In this document: positions 5,193 to 17,866 of the stretch, piece by piece | Position numbering within the stretch: the stretch's first letter is position 1 | Layout of the letters: every line of letters starts with the position of its first letter | Virus record (IMG/VR): IMGVR_UViG_3300036830_000453 | Coordinates: 1 to 40,091 of that record | Source of the DNA: a virus | Strand: one strand, 5' to 3' | Length of the DNA stretch: 40,091 bases | Notes under the pieces: generated by a model | Databases searched by the model: none | What the model was told of the DNA's origin: nothing | Seen by the model: the letters and a program-made list of their open reading frames with translations, nothing else | Made by a program: the position numbers and the translations under genes

Positions 5193-7934
5193 ATGGCGAA
5201 GAAGGCGGATCCGAATCGGCGCGGGGACATCGACGCCGAGGTGGCCTATTGGAAGGACGAGATCGACACCTACGAGCGGATGTTCGACAAGTTCCTGCGC
5301 CGCGGCCGCAAGATCATGAAAAAATACAAGGACGTCCGCACGCCCAGGGAGGAGGCGATCACCCGGTACAACATCCTCTGGGCCAACACCCAGACCCGCT
5401 TGCCCGCGCTCTATGCCCGAAACCCCAAGGTCGTCGTCGAGCGCCGCTTCCGCGACAAGGACCCCGTCGGCCGCGTGGCCTCCGAGGTTCTCGAGCGGTC
5501 GATTCAGTACACCCTTGATCACTGTAACGATTCCTGGCAGACCAACCGCCAATGCGTGCTCGACTTCGAGCTGCCAGGCCGAGGTACTGTCTGGGTGCGC
5601 TACGTGCCGCATTTCAAGAAGCAAGAACTTGCAGCGGCTGATGCAGAGCGTCGTCCGGCAGACTCGGGCCCTGCAGGTACCGTTGCTGGCGGCGAGCCCG
5701 ACCCCGCCTCCCTCCAAAGCTCCGAAGCCCCCGGGGAAACCGCCCAGCCCTTGACGGTTGGCGCGGAGGGCAAAGTCCCAAAGCTCGATCAAATTGGCGC
5801 CGAGGGCGTGCAGGTCTCGAACGTCTCGCCCGACGAGGTGGCCGAGGAGACCATCGAATACGAGGAGACCAAGCTCGACTACGTGTACTGGGAGGACTAC
5901 GGCCATTCCTGGGCCCGGGTCGATGATGAGGTCCGCGGCAAGTGGCGCCGCGTGTACATGGACCGCGAGGAGCTGGAGCTGCGCTTCACGAACCTCACCG
6001 AGGCGGAGATTGCCGGCATCCCGCTCGACTGGTCGCCGAAGAACCTGACCGACACGAAGGTGCCGCAAACCCGCAAGAAGGCGATCGTGTACGAGATCTG
6101 GGACAAGCGCCGGCGCGTGATCCTTTGGATGGTGAAGACCTACCCGAAGCTGCTCGACAAGCGCGACGACAAGTTGGGGCTGGACGGCTTCTTCCCCACG
6201 CCCCGGCCGCTGCTGGCGAACCTGTGCAATGACGACCTGGTGCCGACGCCGAATTTCAGCTTCTACCAGGACCAGGCGAACGAGATCGACGAGCTCTCCA
6301 CCCGCATCGTCTCGATCACCAAGGCCTTGAAGGTCGCCGGCGTGCGCGATGCCAGCGCCGAGGCGCTCGATCGATTGCTTTCCGAAGGCGTGGAAAACGC
6401 CCTGGTGCCGGTCAATGGATGGGCTGCGATGAAGGAGAAGGGGGGCCTCGCGGGAAGCTTTGCCCTCCTGCCGATGGAGGAAATTGCCGATACGCTGCAG
6501 AAGCTGCGCGACCAGCGCACCGCGTTGATCGAGGACGTCTACCAGCTCACCGGCATCTCCGACATCGTCCGCGGCATGAGCGACCCGAACGAGACGGCCA
6601 CCGCGCAGCAGCTCAAAGGCCAATTCTCGATGGTGCGCATCGAGGACGCCCAGACCGAGGTGCAGCGCTTCTGCCGGGACGAGATTCGGATCATCGGCCA
6701 AATTGTGGCCGGCTACGATATCGAAACCTTGAAGCAAATCTGTGGCGTCAAGCTCTTGACCGCCATGGAGAAACAACAGATCCAAGCGCAGCTCGCTGCG
6801 CAAGCCCGAATGCAGCAAATGGCGCAAGCGCAGGCCGCGATGTCATCCCCTTCGCCGCCTGCCGGTGCGCCACCCGGGGTGCATCCAGGAGCCCCGGGCG
6901 CTGCCCCGCCTGCTATGCTTCCGCCTCATACAACGTCGCCGCCGCAGCCGGGTCCTTCGGGACCGCCGCAGGGCGCACCGGGTATGCCGCAAGCGGGTCT
7001 CCCGCCTGCCGCCGGTGCCGTCCCTGCGGTCGGAGCGCAGCAGGCGCCACAGCCCGGCGGTCAAATGCACCCCGGCGCACCTTCCCAGCCGATGACGCCG
7101 GCGCCGGGCCAAGCCCCGCCCAGCCCTGAGAAAATGCAGCTGCTCGAGCTTCCCACTTGGGAGGAGGTCGAGGCGCTGCTCAAGAACCCGGTCTTACGCG
7201 AGTTCCGCTTGGACCTGGAGACCGACTCGACCATCCGCATGGACGAGGAGGCCGAGAAGCTGGCGCGCATGGAGCTGATCAAATCGGTCGGCGAGTTCGT
7301 GCAGCAAATGGTCCAGGCCGGCGCCGCCGCCCCCGAGATCCTGCCGATGTTGGGCGAGCTGCTGATGTTCGGCATCCGCGCGTTCAAGACGGCGCGCGCG
7401 GTCGAGCAAACCTTCGAGGACATGATGGAGGCGCTCGAGAAGGCCGCGAAGCAGCCGAAGGGGCCGCCGCCGGAGGTCGCCAAGGCGCAGGCCGAGGGGC
7501 AAATCCAAATGCAGCTCGAGCAGATCAAGGGCAAGGTCACGCTGCAGGTCGCCCAGGGCGAGCAGCAAGCCCAGGCCCAACAGGCGCAGCAGGAAAACCA
7601 GCTGGAGTCGCAACGGGACCAGCTCAAAGCGCAACTCGATGCCCAAACCGCGCAACACGCCGCGGAGATCAAGGCCAAGACCGACCAGGTCATCGAGGAG
7701 CTGCGCGCGCGCTTCGAGGCCGAGAAATCCCAGTGGGAGACGGCCGCCAAGGAGCGCATCGCCAAGCTCGAGGCCGACACCGAGCTCAAGATCGCCGGCA
7801 TGAAGATGGCGCACGAGAAGGAGCAAAACGAGCAGGGCCGCCGCCACGAGCAGTCGATCACGCGGATGAACCAGTCCCACGATGAGAAGATGGGCAAAGC
7901 CGCCGCGGCCGACAAGGAGAAAAAGGCCGCATGA
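5193..7934 (+). CDS. portal protein
   Basis: A 913-residue protein that would form the dodecameric DNA entry ring. The first 560 residues look like a portal: RYNILWANTQTRLPALYARN near residue 60, a linker around 150-190, then GISDIVRGMSDPNETATAQQ and IIGQIVAGYDIETL near 450-520. Residues 560-645 form a Pro/Gly/Ala-rich linker. Residues 645-760 are helical, and 760-913 are a Gln/Ala/Glu-rich, highly charged coiled coil. Position after terminase and before scaffold and capsid supports the call. Most portals are 500-750 residues, so the C-terminal extension is notable. Confidence 0.85.
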   Translation: MAKKADPNRRGDIDAEVAYWKDEIDTYERMFDKFLRRGRKIMKKYKDVRTPREEAITRYNILWANTQTRLPALYARNPKVVVERRFRDKDPVGRVASEVLERSIQYTLDHCNDSWQTNRQCVLDFELPGRGTVWVRYVPHFKKQELAAADAERRPADSGPAGTVAGGEPDPASLQSSEAPGETAQPLTVGAEGKVPKLDQIGAEGVQVSNVSPDEVAEETIEYEETKLDYVYWEDYGHSWARVDDEVRGKWRRVYMDREELELRFTNLTEAEIAGIPLDWSPKNLTDTKVPQTRKKAIVYEIWDKRRRVILWMVKTYPKLLDKRDDKLGLDGFFPTPRPLLANLCNDDLVPTPNFSFYQDQANEIDELSTRIVSITKALKVAGVRDASAEALDRLLSEGVENALVPVNGWAAMKEKGGLAGSFALLPMEEIADTLQKLRDQRTALIEDVYQLTGISDIVRGMSDPNETATAQQLKGQFSMVRIEDAQTEVQRFCRDEIRIIGQIVAGYDIETLKQICGVKLLTAMEKQQIQAQLAAQARMQQMAQAQAAMSSPSPPAGAPPGVHPGAPGAAPPAMLPPHTTSPPQPGPSGPPQGAPGMPQAGLPPAAGAVPAVGAQQAPQPGGQMHPGAPSQPMTPAPGQAPPSPEKMQLLELPTWEEVEALLKNPVLREFRLDLETDSTIRMDEEAEKLARMELIKSVGEFVQQMVQAGAAAPEILPMLGELLMFGIRAFKTARAVEQTFEDMMEALEKAAKQPKGPPPEVAKAQAEGQIQMQLEQIKGKVTLQVAQGEQQAQAQQAQQENQLESQRDQLKAQLDAQTAQHAAEIKAKTDQVIEELRARFEAEKSQWETAAKERIAKLEADTELKIAGMKMAHEKEQNEQGRRHEQSITRMNQSHDEKMGKAAAADKEKKAA

Positions 7935-9958: not shown

Positions 9959-10942
9959 ATGGCCTTAATCAATCCGTCGGCCACGGTCACGGAAATCGTG
10001 ACCACGACCTTGCGCAACCGCACGGGCAAGCTCGCCGACAACGTCACCAAAAACAACGCCTTGCTGTACCGCCTGCGGGCGCGCGGCCGGGTCAAGCCGG
10101 TCACCGGCGGCCGAACCATCGTGCAGGAGCTGAACTACCAGGAGAACGGCACCTACAAGCGTTATTCGGGGTACGAGGTGCTCAACATCTCGCCGAGCGA
10201 CGTGTTCACCGGGGCGGAGTACAACTATGCCCAAGCGGCGGTCGCGGTCTCCATCAGCGGACTCGAGATGCTCCAAAATTCTGGCGAAGAGGCGATCATC
10301 GATCTCCTCGAGGGCCGGATCGAGAACGCCGAGCAGACCCTCACCAACAATATCGCCCTCGACACCTACTCCAACGGCACCGCCGATGGCGGACGTCAGA
10401 TCGGCGGTATCCAGCTGCTGGTCAGCCTTACGCCGAGTTCTGGCATCGTTGGGGGAATAGACCCCTCGGTGTGGGCGTTCTGGCGAAATGTGGCCTTCTC
10501 CGGCATCACCAACGGTGGCGCCGCGGTGTCCACGGGCACGATTCAGACCTACATGAACCGCGTCTACCTGCAGCTGGTGCGCGGCGCCGACGCCCCGGAC
10601 CTGATCGTCGCGGACAACAACTTCTACCGCTATTACCTCGAGTCGATGCAGGCGCTGCAGCGCGTGCAGAACGAGGAGCTGGCGGAGCTGGGGTTCCAGA
10701 CGCTCAAGTACATGAACTGCGACGTCGTGTTGGACGGCGGGTTCGGGGGCGGGGCGCCGGTGAACACGATGTACTTCCTGAACACGAAGTACCTCTTTTT
10801 CCGCCCGCACGCCGATCGCAACTTTGCCCCCTTGGGCGATGAGCGCTTCGCGGTCAACCAGGACGCGATGGTCAAGCTCATCGGCTTTGCGGGAAACCTC
10901 ACCACCAGCAACCGCTTCCTGCAGGGCGTGCTCGCGGCCTAA
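9959..10942 (+). CDS. major capsid protein
   Basis: A 327-residue shell protein. It starts MALINPSATVTEIVTTTLRN, carries the N-arm / E-loop type segment GGRTIVQELNYQENGTYKRY near residue 50, and ends with an Ala/Gly/Thr-rich strand region as in HK97-fold capsids of short-tailed phages. The size fits. A good ribosome site (AGAGG) precedes the ATG. Position after scaffold and before tail adaptors supports the call. A 49-base gap separates it from the next gene. Confidence 0.88.
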   Translation: MALINPSATVTEIVTTTLRNRTGKLADNVTKNNALLYRLRARGRVKPVTGGRTIVQELNYQENGTYKRYSGYEVLNISPSDVFTGAEYNYAQAAVAVSISGLEMLQNSGEEAIIDLLEGRIENAEQTLTNNIALDTYSNGTADGGRQIGGIQLLVSLTPSSGIVGGIDPSVWAFWRNVAFSGITNGGAAVSTGTIQTYMNRVYLQLVRGADAPDLIVADNNFYRYYLESMQALQRVQNEELAELGFQTLKYMNCDVVLDGGFGGGAPVNTMYFLNTKYLFFRPHADRNFAPLGDERFAVNQDAMVKLIGFAGNLTTSNRFLQGVLAA

Positions 10943-10991: not shown

Positions 10992-11684
10992 ATGGGTAAA
11001 GTGCAATTTCTGGCGGCTCAGGTGCCGGCCAACCCGACCTACAATTGGTCGTTCTTGGACCCGATCATCGGCGTACTCGACATCGGGTTCGTTTCCACCG
11101 ATGCCCCGGGCCCGGGCCCCGCTGCGACGGGTTTGCAAAACGTAGCCACCAGCGTGCTGCCGCGGCCGGTGTTCGAGCCCATGTTGGGGCAGATCCTCCG
11201 GGCGTGGGAGCCCACCTTAGGCTTCGGTGAGTTCATCTACCTGGCGGTGCCCGTCTCGACGGCGGTGCCCTTGGGGACGGTGTGCTCGTACGAGTTCGGG
11301 CCTTCGGGCACGCAGTACAGCTACGTCATCATGCCCGCCGGGGCAACCTCGCTGAACACCGGCGCGCCGGTGGCGGTGTGCATCGCCTCGACTGTGAATA
11401 ACAGCGGCGCGGGCATCACCAGCAACGCGGCCAGCGTGCAATACGCCTGGTTCCAGTGCGGCGGGGCGACCCAGGTCCTGAAGACCAACATTCAGGTGGC
11501 GCCGGTGGCGACCGAGCAGGGTGCGGGTGTCTACATGTCGGCAACGGCGGGGCGTATTTACACGACCGCTTCGGCCGGCAAGCAGATCCTCGGAGCCCGG
11601 CTTGCCAACCAGACGACGGTCACGAGTACCTCCAGCTGCGTGCTGGTGTACTTGAACGGCCGCCCGAGCATGGAAGGCAAGTAA
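10992..11684 (+). CDS. virion protein, possible decoration protein
   Basis: A 230-residue beta-prone protein rich in Gly, Ala, Ser, Thr and Val with few charges. It contains repeated short strands (GFGEFIYLAVPVSTAVPLG, TQYSYVIMPAG, AWFQCGG) and has a conventional start with AAGAGGG upstream. Between the capsid gene and a glycosyltransferase, a head decoration or minor capsid role is the natural guess. If the particle is glycosylated, this surface-type protein would be a candidate acceptor. No family is recognised with certainty. Confidence 0.7.
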   Translation: MGKVQFLAAQVPANPTYNWSFLDPIIGVLDIGFVSTDAPGPGPAATGLQNVATSVLPRPVFEPMLGQILRAWEPTLGFGEFIYLAVPVSTAVPLGTVCSYEFGPSGTQYSYVIMPAGATSLNTGAPVAVCIASTVNNSGAGITSNAASVQYAWFQCGGATQVLKTNIQVAPVATEQGAGVYMSATAGRIYTTASAGKQILGARLANQTTVTSTSSCVLVYLNGRPSMEGK

Positions 11685-13783
11685 TGCTCCACGTCGCCTG
11701 TGTCAGGCAGGGAGAGGCGTTCGGCGTCGAATACGTCGAGCGCCTCTTCGACATGGTGCGACGCAATCTGCCGGATGGGTTTTCGGGTCGGTTCGTGTGT
11801 CTCACGGATCGGCCCGACGACCTTAAGGAGTTCGGGGGGATTTGCACCACGAACCAGGCCGAGACCCTTCCCGGCTGGTGGGCGAAGATGCAACTATTCG
11901 ACCCGGCGATGCAGGCCACCTTGGGCTTCGAGAAGGGCGATCGGATATGGTATTTCGACCTCGACACGGTAATTGCTGGTCCTTTGGACAAGTTGTTCGA
12001 GTACCCGGGGGCGTTCGGAATTTTGGAGGACGTCTACCGACCGGGCGGCTTCCAAAGCTCCGTGATGAGCTGGATAGCGGGCACGGCGCTGACGTGCTCA
12101 ATTTGGGAGGAGTGGGCGAAGCGCAAGCAGCCGCGCTCGCCCGGCGGTGACCAACAGGTCCTCGAGCAATTCTGGAAGGGGCCGCCGGGAATAGACCCCG
12201 CGAACGGCCTCGAATTCGGCTGGCTGCATGCCCGCATTGGCGGGGCGCCCTGGCCGCCAGATTTCCTGCAGCAGCTCTACCCGGGGAGCTTGCGATCGTA
12301 CAAAGTCGATTGCGTCTGGGGCGTTCCGAAAGGCACCAGCGTCGTGTTCTTCCACGGGCGGCCGCGTCCACACGAGGTGCTCACCGGCTGGGTGCCCGAA
12401 CTATGGAAGGTAGGCGCGGCGAACTCGGCGCAGATCTTCGAGGTGGGCACGGTCGACCAAACCAAGGTGGTGGCGAACATCGCCGACGCCCTGACCCACG
12501 ACTACGCGAACCTCGCGCAAAGCGAGCCGCACGAGAAGTGCGCGATCATTTGCGGCGGCGGCCCCTCCCTGGCCGACCACCTGCCGATGATCGGCGCCAT
12601 GCAGCGCGGCGGCGCGCTGGTGTTTAGCTGCAATAACGTCGACGGGTTCCTGCGCGATCGAGGAATTTCGCCGAACTTCCACGTCATGATGGACGCCCGC
12701 GAGCTGCACGCCGAGTGGGTGTACGAGGGCGGCATCAAGCTCTACGCCTCGATGTGCAACCCGAAGACGCTGGCCGCCGGCGCCGAACTTGGCGACTTGA
12801 CCATCTGGCACCCGCTCACCCAGGGCGTTGAAACCGTGATCGATCGCAAGGCCCTGCTGGTCGGCGGGGGCTCCACCGTCGGCACCCGGGCGATGGCCTT
12901 GGCGTACGTCATGGGCTTTCGCCGCCTGATGTGCTTCGGCTTCGACTCCTCCTACCGCGACGGCAACCATCACGCCTACGGCCAGGCGGTGAACGACACC
13001 GACCGGGCGCTTGACTGCGTCGTTGGCGGGAAGCGCTTCAAGGCGGCCCCGTGGATGGTCAAGCAGGCGGATGATTGGAAGGAGCTCGCGCAGGCCCTGA
13101 TGGGATTAGGCTGCGAGATCTCGGTCACCGGGGACGGGCTCATTGCCGCGGTGGTCGCCGGCATGAATTCGGCCACGGTCGAGATTGACGGCTTTGAGTG
13201 GCCGAGCCAGGACACCCAGGCGCGCCAGAGTATCCTCGGGAGCCTGCCCGATTTGGAAAAGTACATAGGTCTTTGTACCCATAGACGGGTGGCGGTCCAG
13301 GCCGGCGGCAACGTTGGGGTGTGGCCGAAGGAGCTCTCCAAACACTTCGCCGATGTCTATACGTTTGAGCCTGACGCGCTTAATTACGGTTGCCTGGCAC
13401 GCAACGTGCGAGAGCCGAATGTGTTCATGCGGTTCGCGGCACTGGGGGAGCTGGAGGGCCTGGGTGCCATCGCCCGCGACCCGCAGAATTGTGGCGCGTC
13501 CGCCGTGGCTCAGGGGTCGGAATTCCCGGTCATTACCCTGGACTCACTTGAACTAGCCCACGTCGACCTGCTGCAGCTGGACGTCGAGGGCTTCGAGCTG
13601 CAGGCCTTGAAGGGCGCGGCCGCCACCATCGCGCGCTGCTCGCCGCTGATCGTGCTTGAGCTCAAGGGCCTGGGCGAGCGCTACGGGTACACCGATGATC
13701 AGGTCGATGCGTGGCTCAAAGAGCTGTCTTATCAACGAATTGGCGTCGCGCACCGCGACGTGATTTACAAGAGGGTGATGTAA
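11684..13783 (+). CDS. glycosyltransferase / DUF115-like / FkbM methyltransferase fusion
   Basis: A 699-residue three-part protein. Residues 1-250: a GT-A-like glycosyltransferase with WYFDLDTV (89-96) holding the DxD metal/nucleotide-sugar motif, and a FFHGRPRPHE segment at 222-231. Residues 280-500: a DUF115/MAF-like domain with CAIICGGGPSL (286-296) and VMMDARE, related to motility-associated sugar transferases. Residues 530-690: an FkbM-family methyltransferase with QAGGNVGVW (539-547), FEPD (561-564) and LQLDVEGFE (630-638). The ATG overlaps the upstream TAA (TAATG). Sitting inside the head module, it could add and O-methylate a sugar on a virion protein or host glycan. Which one is inference. 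Confidence 0.85.
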   Translation: MLHVACVRQGEAFGVEYVERLFDMVRRNLPDGFSGRFVCLTDRPDDLKEFGGICTTNQAETLPGWWAKMQLFDPAMQATLGFEKGDRIWYFDLDTVIAGPLDKLFEYPGAFGILEDVYRPGGFQSSVMSWIAGTALTCSIWEEWAKRKQPRSPGGDQQVLEQFWKGPPGIDPANGLEFGWLHARIGGAPWPPDFLQQLYPGSLRSYKVDCVWGVPKGTSVVFFHGRPRPHEVLTGWVPELWKVGAANSAQIFEVGTVDQTKVVANIADALTHDYANLAQSEPHEKCAIICGGGPSLADHLPMIGAMQRGGALVFSCNNVDGFLRDRGISPNFHVMMDARELHAEWVYEGGIKLYASMCNPKTLAAGAELGDLTIWHPLTQGVETVIDRKALLVGGGSTVGTRAMALAYVMGFRRLMCFGFDSSYRDGNHHAYGQAVNDTDRALDCVVGGKRFKAAPWMVKQADDWKELAQALMGLGCEISVTGDGLIAAVVAGMNSATVEIDGFEWPSQDTQARQSILGSLPDLEKYIGLCTHRRVAVQAGGNVGVWPKELSKHFADVYTFEPDALNYGCLARNVREPNVFMRFAALGELEGLGAIARDPQNCGASAVAQGSEFPVITLDSLELAHVDLLQLDVEGFELQALKGAAATIARCSPLIVLELKGLGERYGYTDDQVDAWLKELSYQRIGVAHRDVIYKRVM

Positions 13784-14692
13784 ATGAACGAAGGCATGAC
13801 CGAATTTTCCCCGCCGCACCACATTGGCAGCCGCGACGTGCATATGCGCCCGGGCTCGCAAAACCAGCGCCAGACGGAGGGCGGGGGCACCGTCTCCTAC
13901 GGCCTCGATGACGGCATGATCGTCGAGTTCTTCCCGCAGCAGGTCTTCCTCGAGGCGATCTCGAAGAACTTGGGCCATCAGATTTTCCAGGAGCGCATCT
14001 ACACGCGCATCGTCATGCCCGGCAACCGCAACACGGTCTGGGTGCACGAGACCAAGGGCGTGATCTACGAGACGGTGGTCGACGACGAATCGGGCGAGTA
14101 CCACACCGTCTGGGACCTGCAGGAGGTCTGTGACAACGGCGATGCGCCGGAGCCGAACAAGTACCCCAACGCCTGGAAGCGCTTCATGAAAAAGGGCATC
14201 TCGGCCGACACCGGGATTCCGATCGAGCAGTGGGGCGTGGTCAGCCGCTCCTACGCCGAGTCCTTGAAGGTGAACAACATCCACACCGTCGAGGCCTTGG
14301 CATCGCTCTCCGACCAAACCGCCCAGTCGATCATGGGGGCAGTGAAGTACCGGGACCTGGCGCGCGCGGCGCTCGATGACTTGAAGCGCACCGCGATCGT
14401 CGCGAAGGAGCAGGAGCGCGCGACGCGCTTCGAGGAGCTGTCCGCCACGCAGGCCAAGCAGATCGAGGCGCTCCAGCAGCACGTGCTGGCGCTGCAATCG
14501 AAGTTGAACGGCAGCGAGGGGCCCGCCGCCCCGGGCCGCATGGTCGGGACCGCGCCGGTGGTAGCGACCGAGATTCGCAAGATGTCGAAGGCGAACGCCG
14601 CCAAGAAGCACCGCATCCCGGACGCCGATGAGGCGCCGGCCGGGCCGGAGCGCCGCCAGGGCAAGCCGCCGCAGCTCAAGCAGACGGGTTAA
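13784..14692 (+). CDS. phage structural-region protein with coiled coil
   Basis: A 302-residue protein starting one base after the fusion enzyme's stop. Residues 45-155 include FFPQQVFLEAISKN and VMPGNRNTVWVHETK. Residues 150-205 contain GIPIEQWGVVSRSYAESLK and HTVEALASLSD, a short helical segment often seen in proteins next to phage capsid genes and resembling a helix-hairpin-helix. Residues 205-250 form a coiled coil, and the C-terminus is basic and disordered. Function is unknown. It is probably a virion or assembly factor. Confidence 0.65.
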   Translation: MNEGMTEFSPPHHIGSRDVHMRPGSQNQRQTEGGGTVSYGLDDGMIVEFFPQQVFLEAISKNLGHQIFQERIYTRIVMPGNRNTVWVHETKGVIYETVVDDESGEYHTVWDLQEVCDNGDAPEPNKYPNAWKRFMKKGISADTGIPIEQWGVVSRSYAESLKVNNIHTVEALASLSDQTAQSIMGAVKYRDLARAALDDLKRTAIVAKEQERATRFEELSATQAKQIEALQQHVLALQSKLNGSEGPAAPGRMVGTAPVVATEIRKMSKANAAKKHRIPDADEAPAGPERRQGKPPQLKQTG

Positions 14693-14715: not shown

Positions 14716-15711
14716 GTGTCACTTCTCACCATCGTGCAGGGGGCCTTCAGCGAGGTCGGCTTCGGCAGCCCAACGCAGGTGGTGGGCAACCCGGACTTGA
14801 CCGTCCAGCAGGCGCAAGGCCTGGTGAACCGCGCGGGCCTGGAGCTTCGCGATGCCGACAACGCGGCCGATTATTGGCCGAGCATCCGCAAGCAATTCCT
14901 GTTCAACCTGCTGGGGATTGGCCCCTTCACCGGCACCTTCACCCCGAACTCGAACGTCATCACGAACGTGAACTTTACGGGCTCGGGGACGGGGTTGGCC
15001 GGCGTGCTCGCCAATTGGCAGGCCTCGAGCACGTACCTGCTAAACGATACCGCGGTGGTCTCGGTGAATGTGGGCGCCAAGACCGTCACGCTCAACCAAA
15101 ACGCCAATCTCACCACCACCCAGGGCGTACAGGTCGACAACCAGCTCGCCTTCGGTCAGGAGGCCTATCCGCAGCCGGCGGACTTGAGCTATTTCATCCC
15201 GCAGACCGGCTGGGACCGCAACTTTCGCTGGCAGCTTTTAGGCCCGGTCGACGCGCAAGAGTGGCAGGTGTTGAAGTCCGGAATTTCCCCCGTGGGACCG
15301 CGGCTTCGCTATCGCCTGATGGGCAATCAGATCTATGTGAACCCCGCCCCCTACGTGCCGACCGGCCAGTCCTCGCCTATTTCGGACCTGTTGGTCATGG
15401 AATATGCGAGCCTGTTTTGGGCTTCACCCGCCGGCACGGTGAACCCCACGCAACCAACGCAGACGCTGATGCAGTTGGATACCGATATTTGCTTAGCCTT
15501 CCCCGAGGACCTCATCACCAAGTCCTTGAAGTGGCGAATATTGAAGGCCAAGGGCATGGCCTACGCGGAGGAATTCTCCGAGTACCAGGACTCGCTCGAT
15601 CGGACCAGCGGGCGTTTCACCATGCCGCGCAACTTGCCGCTCAATGCCCGGGCGAGCGGTATCCGCCTGCTCTCTTCGCAGAACGTGCCCGACACCGGGT
15701 TCGGTAGTTAA
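14716..15711 (+). CDS. head-tail adaptor, gp4 / tail-tubular-A-like
   Basis: A 331-residue protein with a GTG start and GAAGGAG ribosome site. The opening (LLTIVQGAFSEVGFG, then VQQAQGLVNRAGLELRD) and the C-terminal half (PEDLITKSLKWRILKAKGM, YAEEFSEYQDSLDR) follow the pattern of adaptor proteins that close the portal in short-tailed phages. A beta-rich insertion (residues 75-150) is unusual. It would attach the tail hub to the portal ring. The next gene starts directly at its stop (TAAGTG). Confidence 0.65.
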   Translation: MSLLTIVQGAFSEVGFGSPTQVVGNPDLTVQQAQGLVNRAGLELRDADNAADYWPSIRKQFLFNLLGIGPFTGTFTPNSNVITNVNFTGSGTGLAGVLANWQASSTYLLNDTAVVSVNVGAKTVTLNQNANLTTTQGVQVDNQLAFGQEAYPQPADLSYFIPQTGWDRNFRWQLLGPVDAQEWQVLKSGISPVGPRLRYRLMGNQIYVNPAPYVPTGQSSPISDLLVMEYASLFWASPAGTVNPTQPTQTLMQLDTDICLAFPEDLITKSLKWRILKAKGMAYAEEFSEYQDSLDRTSGRFTMPRNLPLNARASGIRLLSSQNVPDTGFGS

Positions 15712-17337
15712 GTGAGCCTCGCCGCGCGGGCGACGGCCGCGGAGTCGCGCAAGGCCCCGGTCGTCAAGACCTATCGCCAGATCAGCCCCGTCGGCGGGCT
15801 GAACACCAAGGACTCGCTGGCGGCGATGCCCGAGCAAGACGCGGTCATCATCGACAACCTGTTCTGCCAGCCCACCTGGGTCGAGCTGCGCGGGGGCAAG
15901 AAGCTGCTGGCGACCTTCACCGGGAACCCCGAGACCTTGATGGCGTACAACGCCTTAGGGTCCGGGGCCGCCACGCTCTTTGCCTGCGTGAACAACGCGG
16001 GCACCCGCAATATCTACCGCGTCGACAACGCCGGCGGCGGAGCGGTCGGTGCCGCGGTCGTCTCGGGGCTCGGGTCGACCAATATCGATTACAACCAATT
16101 CGGCACGGGGAACGGGAATTTCCTGGTGCTGGTCAACGGGGTGGACTCGCCGATTATCTACGACGGCACCACCTGGCAGGTGGTCACCGGCGTCTCGGCG
16201 CCCTTCGCGTGGACCGGCTTCGGCAGCCTCTCGAGCTTATCGCAGGTGGCCGTATACAAGCAGCGCCTGTGGTTCGTGCAGGCGAACACCTTCAACGTCT
16301 ACTACCTGCCGCAAAACGTGGTGGGCGGGGCGCTGACGCTGCTCAATATTGGCCCGAACTTCAAGCTGGGCGGCTCGATCGCCGCGGTGATCACCGTTTC
16401 GATCGACAACTCCGCCGGCACCAACGATTACATCGCCTTCGTCTCGACGATGGGCGAGGTGATCATGTTCCAGGGTTTCGACCCGGCCAGCGTCACGACC
16501 TTCTCCGTCGCGGCGCACTTTCGCATCGGCGCGCCGATCGGCACCGGGCGGCAGTGCTGGCAGAAAATGGGCATGGATGCGGCCATCATTTGCCAAGACG
16601 GCTTGATCCTGCTCTCCGAGGCGATGCTGACCGACCGCAGCCAGCAGAAGTTGACCCTCTCGGACAAGGTGCGCTATGGGGTTAACCAGGCCATCCAGCT
16701 CTACGGCACGAACCTAGGCTGGTCGCTGCTGCTCTACCCCGCCGGCAACAAGCTGGTGCTGAACGTGCCGACCACGGGCAACCGCACCACCAGCTATCAG
16801 TACGTCATGTCGACGCTGACCGGCGCGTGGGTCACCTGGGGGCAGCTTGCGAGCCCGTTGAACCTCTCCTGCCAGGAGAACTACAACAATCAGTGGTACT
16901 TCGGCTCGCCCGGGGCAGTGTACCAGGGCGATACGGGGCTCTCGGACAACGGCGCGCCGATCACTTGGAACGTCGAGCAGGCCTTCAGCGAAATGGGCGC
17001 CGAGAACGACCAGAAGCGTTGGACCCAGTCCGCCCCGTTCTTCGTGGCCTCCGGCGGCATTTCAGTCGCGCTCACCATGAACGTCGACTACAACTCGGTG
17101 CAGCCCGCGGGCTTGATCCCGCTCTCGCAGTCGGGTGGCGCGCAGTGGAACGTGGCCCTTTGGACCACGCCCACCTTCTGGGCGGATGCGCAGCAGATCG
17201 TCAAAAAGTGGATCGGCACCAACGAGGTCGGGACCGCGGGTGCTATGTATATGCAGGGTTCGGCGATGGGGGTGACCATGAAGTGGATGATGACCAAGCA
17301 CCAATTTGAGGTGGGCGGCACGTTCTATGGGCCGTAA
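15712..17337 (+). CDS. tail hub / DNA stabilisation protein, beta-propeller-like
   Basis: A 541-residue beta-rich protein with a GTG start abutting the upstream stop. The N-terminus contains SPVGGLNTKDSLAAMPEQDA and VIIDNLFCQPTWVELRGG, the usual start of podovirus tail-hub proteins of the P22 gp10 type. The body has repeated blade-like units (IYRVDNAGG, IIYDGTTWQVV, LWFVQANTFNVYYLP). It would plug the portal-adaptor channel and carry tail fibres. The call rests on pattern and position. Confidence 0.65.
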   Translation: MSLAARATAAESRKAPVVKTYRQISPVGGLNTKDSLAAMPEQDAVIIDNLFCQPTWVELRGGKKLLATFTGNPETLMAYNALGSGAATLFACVNNAGTRNIYRVDNAGGGAVGAAVVSGLGSTNIDYNQFGTGNGNFLVLVNGVDSPIIYDGTTWQVVTGVSAPFAWTGFGSLSSLSQVAVYKQRLWFVQANTFNVYYLPQNVVGGALTLLNIGPNFKLGGSIAAVITVSIDNSAGTNDYIAFVSTMGEVIMFQGFDPASVTTFSVAAHFRIGAPIGTGRQCWQKMGMDAAIICQDGLILLSEAMLTDRSQQKLTLSDKVRYGVNQAIQLYGTNLGWSLLLYPAGNKLVLNVPTTGNRTTSYQYVMSTLTGAWVTWGQLASPLNLSCQENYNNQWYFGSPGAVYQGDTGLSDNGAPITWNVEQAFSEMGAENDQKRWTQSAPFFVASGGISVALTMNVDYNSVQPAGLIPLSQSGGAQWNVALWTTPTFWADAQQIVKKWIGTNEVGTAGAMYMQGSAMGVTMKWMMTKHQFEVGGTFYGP

Positions 17338-17866
17338 GTTCGTGATGGCCCACGAGGACGAGCGGGTCGCGGAGTTCGTCTGCAAGCACAACGCCATGGA
17401 GCTCGGCGACTCGCCCTACACCGCGATCGGCCAGGGCGATGCGATGGGCAATGTGATAGGCGGGGTGGTGTTCAACAATTTCACCAAAACCGATATCCAC
17501 CTGCACGTCGCCGGGGTGGGCCGCTATTGGCTGTCGCGCCGCTTTTTGGGCGAGTGCTATCGCTACGTGTTCATGCAATTGAAGTGCGCGCGCAACACCG
17601 TGCTGATCGACGCCGCCAACCAACACTCGATCGATTTTTGCGAGGGGCTCGGCTACGTCTACGAAGGGACGCTGCGCCGCTATCTTGCCAACGGAAACGA
17701 CTGCCACGTCCTCGGGATGTTGCGCGAGGAGTGCCGCTGGCTCAAAGCAGGAGAACTGACCAATGGTCTTAAATCAACCCCGCCCCCTTCCGTCTCCCGG
17801 CTCCGGCAGCGGGAGCGCACCGCCCTACAGCAAACCCCAGCCCAACGGCGCAGCACCGGCTTATAG
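17327..17866 (+). CDS. GNAT-like acetyltransferase
   Basis: A 179-residue protein. The ATG at 17327 overlaps the tail hub gene and is a better start than the ATG at 17306. The GNAT fold is suggested by the hydrophobic strand NVIGGVVFNNF, a central helix after YWLSRRFLGECYRYV, and the typical C-terminal motif ANQHSIDFCEGLGYVYEG, where acetyl-CoA-binding and aromatic residues lie. Similar proteins occur in tail regions of short-tailed phages. The substrate is unknown. The last 35 residues overlap the next gene and look like a shadow-encoded tail. Confidence 0.75.
   Translation: MGRKFVMAHEDERVAEFVCKHNAMELGDSPYTAIGQGDAMGNVIGGVVFNNFTKTDIHLHVAGVGRYWLSRRFLGECYRYVFMQLKCARNTVLIDAANQHSIDFCEGLGYVYEGTLRRYLANGNDCHVLGMLREECRWLKAGELTNGLKSTPPPSVSRLRQRERTALQQTPAQRRSTGL

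Follow-up and report, generated by a model that had tools for sequence, protein, structure and literature searches.

The locus described here raises the question of why a phage carries a large glycan-type enzyme in the middle of its head operon, and which molecule this enzyme modifies. The window (the whole stretch of DNA that was analysed, 40,091 bases) is that of an Mx8-like podovirus. In the initial annotation, the gene at 11684–13783 was read as a 699-residue polypeptide that joins a DxD glycosyltransferase (GT), a DUF115/MAF-like domain and an FkbM methyltransferase, and that is coupled to a virion gene at 10992–11684 and followed by structural genes. Both statements were borne out: the three parts match PHROG 1962, PF01973 and PF05050, respectively, the upstream gene matches phrog_29386 and overlaps the enzyme gene in a TAATG sequence, and the stop codon of the enzyme directly abuts the ATG of the next structural gene at 13784. 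The features of the region are as follows:

9959–10942, plus strand: major capsid protein (MCP), the anchor of the survey (phrog_9953, E = 1.1e-125; 50% identity to Mx8)
10992–11684, plus strand: DEC, predicted capsid decoration (cement) protein of 230 aa, candidate glycan acceptor (phrog_29386 and AF2 model)
11604–11639, plus strand: Ser/Thr-rich loop of DEC, residues 205–216 (..QTTVTSTSSC), candidate O-glycosylation site (column test)
11682–11686, plus strand: TAATG overlap of the DEC stop and the enzyme start, read from the sequence as translational coupling
11684–13783, plus strand: three-domain enzyme (GT8-like, Maf/MptE-like, FkbM), 699 aa, one uninterrupted open reading frame
11684–12418, plus strand: domain 1, GT-A glycosyltransferase, GT8/glycogenin-like, residues 1–245 (phrog_1962, PDB profile, Foldseek)
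11957–11965, plus strand: DxD of domain 1, DLD at residues 92–94, invariant in 19 homologues
12422–13180, plus strand: domain 2, Maf/MptE-like (PF01973, the former DUF115), residues 247–499 (Pfam, PDB profile, Foldseek)
12554–12568, plus strand: GGGPS motif of domain 2
12968–12985, plus strand: HHAYGQ motif of domain 2
13181–13780, plus strand: domain 3, FkbM-type SAM methyltransferase (Pfam match at 13355–13735; phrog_8156, E = 9e-23)
13784–14692, plus strand: p50 homologue, structural, which closes the slot (phrog_20268, E = 1.6e-10; aligned with the p50 position of Mx8)
14716–15711, plus strand: p51 homologue, tail/adaptor (phrog_6013, E = 1.5e-36)

The identity of the head module is confirmed by the matches of the MCP, the adaptor/tail gene at 14716 and the portal. 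The MCP of the window matches those of Myxococcus phage Mx8, Bradyrhizobium ppBjS10J-1 and Stenotrophomonas BUCT555, whose genes follow one another in a common order of MCP, small structural gene, p50, p51, p52, GNAT and p54. In Mx8, ppBjS10J-1 and most relatives, DEC and p50 adjoin with nothing between them, so the site of the enzyme is an insertion slot. The GNAT acetyltransferase kept between p52 and p54 in Mx8-like phages is found at 17306–17866 of the window (phrog_4470) and may acetylate a virion protein. Elsewhere in the window, positions 581–1849 encode a 422-aa ParB-like/DNA methyltransferase fusion (phrog_498, E = 1e-137), and the portal (5193–7934, 913 aa) is of an extended form, with a C-terminal part (residues 772–895) that matches the minor head protein family phrog_1786.

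In a PHROG profile search, residues 5–243 of the enzyme match the PHROG 1962 glycosyltransferases with an E-value of 4.9e-28. Compared with the PDB, the profile of domain 1 finds glycogenin and other GT8 enzymes (E = 2e-8), and the Foldseek search with the AF2 model finds glycogenin 6eqj (E = 2e-8). Together with the conserved DLD, the fold match identifies domain 1 as a GT-A fold with a DxD metal site; its DxD, GGDQ and HG motifs are invariant or nearly so among 19 homologues, with D92, D94, G155-D156-Q157 and H224-G225 strictly invariant. PF01973 matches residues 263–426 (E = 1.7e-20, far over the Pfam cut-off), and GGGPS, D337, D421 and HHAY.Q of domain 2 are likewise invariant or nearly so in the 19 homologues. 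The profile of this domain places the flagellin glycosyltransferase Maf (5mu5, E = 1.2e-12) before archaeal MptE (8sd5, E = 6e-5), and Maf 5mu5 is also the best Foldseek hit of the domain (E = 1.8e-9). For the model of the entire enzyme, in which most of domains 1 and 2 is confident, the Foldseek order is Maf first and glycogenin next. Since PDB profile and AF2 model both put Maf first, domain 2 is classified by sequence and model as Maf-type, and the Pfam name ‘MptE-like’ is misleading. The third domain is assigned from profiles (PF05050 at residues 558–684, E = 7.5e-14, 52.7 bits against a gathering score of 22.7), the model of the FkbM part being poor, with pLDDT below 50 across much of 495–641. 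Full-length homologues with 55–62% identity are present in L165 and L013, and FkbM is fused to the same GT–Maf partner in L013, L165, L042 and others. The dN/dS values against L165, which are approximate because dS is near saturation, are 0.30, 0.33 and 0.17 for domains 1, 2 and 3, so that all three domains evolve, within this approximation, under purifying selection. These values and the full-length homologues show that the frame is not a chance one. The C-terminus of the L014 enzyme, which was considered as a further close FkbM-type enzyme and rejected, is cut and weakly matches the MT24 type.

The upstream neighbour, DEC, matches the PHROG virion structural protein family phrog_29386 with an E-value of 2.4e-12. 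When its AF2 model (pLDDT 74) was compared with the PDB by Foldseek, the first 15 hits were all phage or archaeal-virus capsid entries, with probabilities mostly above 0.9 and E-values of 0.01–0.4. They come from HFTV1, FCWL1, TW1 (capsid stabilising protein), Sf11, phi29 (head fibre base and prohead) and BB1, and where named they are decoration, stabilising or head-fibre-base proteins. The model-based assignment of DEC as a capsid decoration protein is thus good, but given the range of these E-values it is not certain. A single-protein scan with DEC as the query gave no match; DEC is too divergent for peptide patterns.

The distribution of the enzyme was surveyed in two ways. An MCP-anchored search of viral contigs yielded about 150 loci, and a Maf-type enzyme was present in 28 of the 137 complete slots. 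As a guard against circularity, the second search used the domains of the enzyme itself. In total, 96 Maf-domain enzymes that are non-redundant at 95% identity were collected from viral contigs and MAGs, 78 of them represented by sequences from the enzyme-anchored scans. In all 88 non-redundant loci with enough flanking sequence, the enzyme is preceded by MCP/DEC and followed by p50/p51. The single locus flagged as deviating, L294, has a longer slot, but its enzyme is likewise located between DEC and p50. The scans returned the best 80 loci each with a query profile made from slot enzymes, so remoter copies may exist elsewhere, and GT-only matches occur in other contexts as well. The closest full-length homologue (59% identity, MCP 93%) occupies the same slot, and the 39-kb contig that carries it is part of an uncultured Rhodopila MAG, a hint of an acetobacterial host; among 300 genomes of the family of this MAG, the enzyme was found in that MAG alone. 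Three tblastn queries with the Maf-like domain against 50,697 sequenced phage records gave no match, and the enzyme class therefore seems almost restricted to phages that have not been cultivated. In relatives without a Maf-type enzyme (L138, L139, L141, L143, L149, L150, L061, L072 and L075), the slot is filled by other genes, which have no Pfam match; ten slot genes of this kind were counted. In the slot gene L205:5162–6115, a region that resembles methyltransferases is joined to a DUF120 (CTP-dependent riboflavin kinase) domain, and in L011 (Tetraselmis viridis virus S20, for which an algal host is listed), tailed-phage head genes are found near a GT and an FkbM-like region that are encoded by genes of their own.

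The initial annotation had named homologues with the three parts as unrelated genes in random places as an outcome that would speak against its reading. The survey gave the opposite picture, with a single address for all flanked loci. The fusion is not a one-off either: the window-type order GT–Maf–FkbM is present in ten non-redundant genomes, alongside 86 enzymes of sister architectures that include a few cut or rarer forms. The latter comprise GT–Maf–MT24 (34 of 96), GT–Maf with a separate FkbM gene (18 of 96), GT–Maf alone (15 of 96) and Maf without a recognised GT (12 of 96). The Maf-like domain is the constant part, and the capping modules vary: FkbM, Methyltransf_24 or 25, hexapeptide acyltransferase or sulfotransferase. 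A tree of the GT–Maf part requires five or more switches between the fused FkbM and MT24 types. Hexapeptide acyltransferases lie in the slots of L082 and L086, and further methyltransferases are also found in slots. The enlarged slot of L294 (5227–11881) contains a GT, a GT2, a UDP-glucose/GDP-mannose dehydrogenase and a sulfotransferase–Maf fusion and amounts, judged by its gene content, to a small glycan locus within the head operon of a phage. Because the slot neighbours and fusion partners are glycan genes, a glycan role of the slot enzyme is very likely. Some enzymes (L003:5290–5991 and L166) carry an extra N-terminal region of ∼230 aa before GT–Maf, which has no Pfam or PDB match and by eye looks like another transferase.

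Which protein the enzyme acts on is indicated by its co-inheritance with the neighbouring genes. In the same 87 genomes, enzyme presence requires 4 changes on the DEC tree, compared with 14 on the MCP, 15 on the p50, 14 on the p51 and 16 on the p52 tree. Distance alone does not account for this, as p50 flanks the enzyme equally closely. Convergent composition does not account for it either: after the loop was removed and all Ser and Thr residues were masked, the DEC tree required 5 changes and the masked MCP tree 18 (108 genomes). Tree-based change counts were used in place of partial Mantel tests on sequence divergence, in which the values for enzyme–DEC (0.76) and enzyme–p51 (0.75) did not single out DEC, late genes co-diverging generally. 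Co-inheritance of DEC and the enzyme could also arise without a functional partnership if a recombination boundary lies between the enzyme gene and p50.

A second link is provided by residue composition. The Ser+Thr content of DEC is 22.4% in genomes with the enzyme (n = 104) and 17.3% in those without it (n = 63; p = 1.7e-13), and it is higher in carriers in every MCP cluster that contains both states. The corresponding values for carriers and non-carriers are 15.1 and 14.7% for MCP, 8.8 and 9.2% for p50 and 15.0 and 14.9% for p51, i.e. no difference, and 15.6 and 16.2% for p52, slightly in the opposite direction. Within DEC, the excess is concentrated largely in the loop at 205–216 and peaks at residues 201–220; Ser or Thr is present in carriers versus non-carriers in 94 versus 12% at position 209, 75 versus 10% at position 212 and 89 versus 38% at position 215. 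The loop motif is missing in six enzyme carriers, and many Ser/Thr residues are present there in 12 non-carriers. The independent changes behind the difference in DEC composition are few: across the seven supported independent pairs on the MCP tree, the DEC loop trait changed with the enzyme in 5.6 and against it in 0.2 (median p = 0.03). The controls were nearer balance, with same/opposite counts of 1.7/1.2 for p50, 2.0/1.5 for p52 and 2.7/0.8 for p51, the least balanced of these. On the DEC tree, the independent-pairs test had three supported pairs, a number with which significance is unreachable.

The host surface is a frequent target of phage GTs, and the enzyme could accordingly alter O-antigen, flagellin or an S-layer to block superinfection or to convert a lysogen, with DEC as an accidental neighbour. 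The relatives of the GT domain include P1 PmgQ and P7 HdmD, whose target is unknown, and the characterised relatives of the Maf domain act on flagellin (PMC11339370). However, the enzyme is found exclusively in the structural block beside DEC, its presence tracks DEC rather than MCP, p50, p51 or p52, and the change in Ser/Thr content is confined to DEC; host-surface modification is disfavoured relative to DEC glycosylation, and we regard it as unlikely. The initial annotation had left the choice between a virion protein and the host surface undecided and had put forward the small neighbour as the acceptor. The first of the two targets is the one favoured by position beside DEC, co-inheritance and Ser/Thr content, and the proposal of this acceptor is supported by these genomic tests. 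The enzyme could also glycosylate a virion protein other than DEC (MCP, p50 or a tail protein), its link to DEC being one of position only, since neighbouring genes recombine jointly and p50 is as near as DEC; known phage glycoproteins, as far as cited in PMC11256854, include major capsid proteins (Che8). This possibility has little probability in our estimate, as the Ser/Thr content of MCP, p50, p51 and p52 is not raised in carriers and the equally adjacent p50 does not track the enzyme. That domain 2 is a true 6-hydroxymethylpterin pyrophosphokinase (MptE) of nucleotide/cofactor metabolism, in line with the name of the Pfam model and with a fold match to the M. jannaschii HPPK (8sd5, Foldseek E = 3e-7), is extremely improbable. 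This reading was rejected because the profile match to Maf is far stronger and includes the HHAY.Q region, whereas that to MptE ends short of it, and because of the gene company: the domain is fused to GTs, methyltransferases and a sulfotransferase, and a UDP-sugar dehydrogenase and acyltransferases occur in the same slot.

DEC glycosylation by this enzyme can be compared with known systems. In flagellin, a repetitive structural protein, Ser/Thr residues at the surface receive nonulosonic acids from Maf proteins (PMC11339370). Maf genes are grouped in flagellin loci with those for GTs, FkbM and further methyltransferases (PMC5109656); FkbM and other methyltransferases are also found in enterobacterial flagellin islands (PMC4875605). 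The central domain and fold of the Maf flagellin glycosyltransferases (PF01973/Maf_flag10; Magnetospirillum 5mu5; C. botulinum, Aeromonas, Campylobacter) are the same as in domain 2. Canonical Maf has a degenerate Rossmann-like N-terminal and a helical C-terminal domain (PMC11339370), whereas the phage domain is flanked by a GT8-like GT and an exchangeable methyltransferase. Moreover, the Maf locus is a flagellar/flagellin one, whereas the phage enzyme lies in a head operon in all loci with flanking sequence, and its candidate acceptor is a capsid decoration protein. By analogy, the enzyme would work like a Maf system although it lacks two defining Maf features, the flanking domains and the flagellar locus, and the phage slot resembles a flagellin glycosylation island in compact form. 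In mycobacteriophage Che8 and its relatives, virions are glycosylated by phage GTs and the capsid glycans are covalent (Freeman et al. 2023, as cited in PMC11256854). Phage-encoded GTs that modify the capsid surface are what is proposed here as well, from genomic correlates; the acceptor cited there is the major capsid protein, whereas the candidate here is DEC. In the F1 phage Maravista, GTs are near the 3′ end of the genome and structural genes on the left arm, unlike the enzyme in the head operon. The Che8-type system was compared with the Maf-like domain through the tblastn search of the phage collection alone, without a match. The PHROG 1962 GTs of P1 (PmgQ), P7 (HdmD) and Pelagibacter phage Mosig are homologous to domain 1 (∼30% identity) and cover this domain alone; P1 PmgQ is a stand-alone gene annotated solely with ‘putative morphogenetic function’. 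Relatives of the enzyme have already been deposited from metagenomes, as shown by matches to UniProt entries named ‘MptE-like [uncultured Caudovirales phage]’ (e.g. A0A6J5PVH5, 700 aa, 506 model columns, 35% identity), and no description of their slot, acceptor or module exchange was found in the literature searched. The open-licence literature yielded no paper on a Maf-type enzyme in a phage, its GT8/FkbM fusion or its pairing with a decoration protein. Phage virion glycosylation as such is already known; the architecture is unreported and its genomic address is fixed.

We consider it likely that the enzyme O-glycosylates DEC and that the FkbM domain methylates the sugar, a reading drawn from sequence comparison. 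It agrees with the nearest relatives of the two transferase domains, a protein glycosyltransferase of flagellin for the Maf-like domain and the self-glucosylating glycogenin for the GT. The enzyme would be a phage-encoded virion glycosylation enzyme, probably produced late together with the head proteins. The Maf-like domain, the glycogenin-like GT or both may place a sugar on Ser/Thr residues of DEC, presumably mainly in the loop at 205–216, and whichever GT does not act first would lengthen the glycan. Among the part of the window genes that was scanned, no enzyme making CMP-nonulosonic acid was seen, so the donor would have to be supplied by the host or be a different sugar. The FkbM domain would then O-methylate the glycan. 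Because the Maf-like core is constant among relatives and the capping module is exchanged, the slot may be a capsid-surface diversification cassette of presumed benefit to the phage. The fixed place behind the DEC gene and the inheritance together with DEC indicate that these phages most likely sugar-coat their own heads. We also lean, somewhat less firmly than for DEC glycosylation itself, towards a broader view in which DEC and its own Maf-type enzyme travel between genomes of Mx8-like phages as one unit while the caps are swapped (two methyltransferase types and acyl, sulfo and uronic-acid type genes); the head could thereby vary its sugar coat in much the way in which bacteria vary the glycans of flagellin. 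Glycosylated heads are known in few phage systems, and which enzyme acts on which acceptor is mostly a guess. In the present case, genomic position, shared inheritance and residue composition point jointly to the enzyme, to the protein that it would modify and to a loop as the candidate site. If correct, DEC glycosylation would extend Maf-type protein O-glycosylation from flagellin to viral capsids, and the slot would hold a natural library of exchangeable capping modules.
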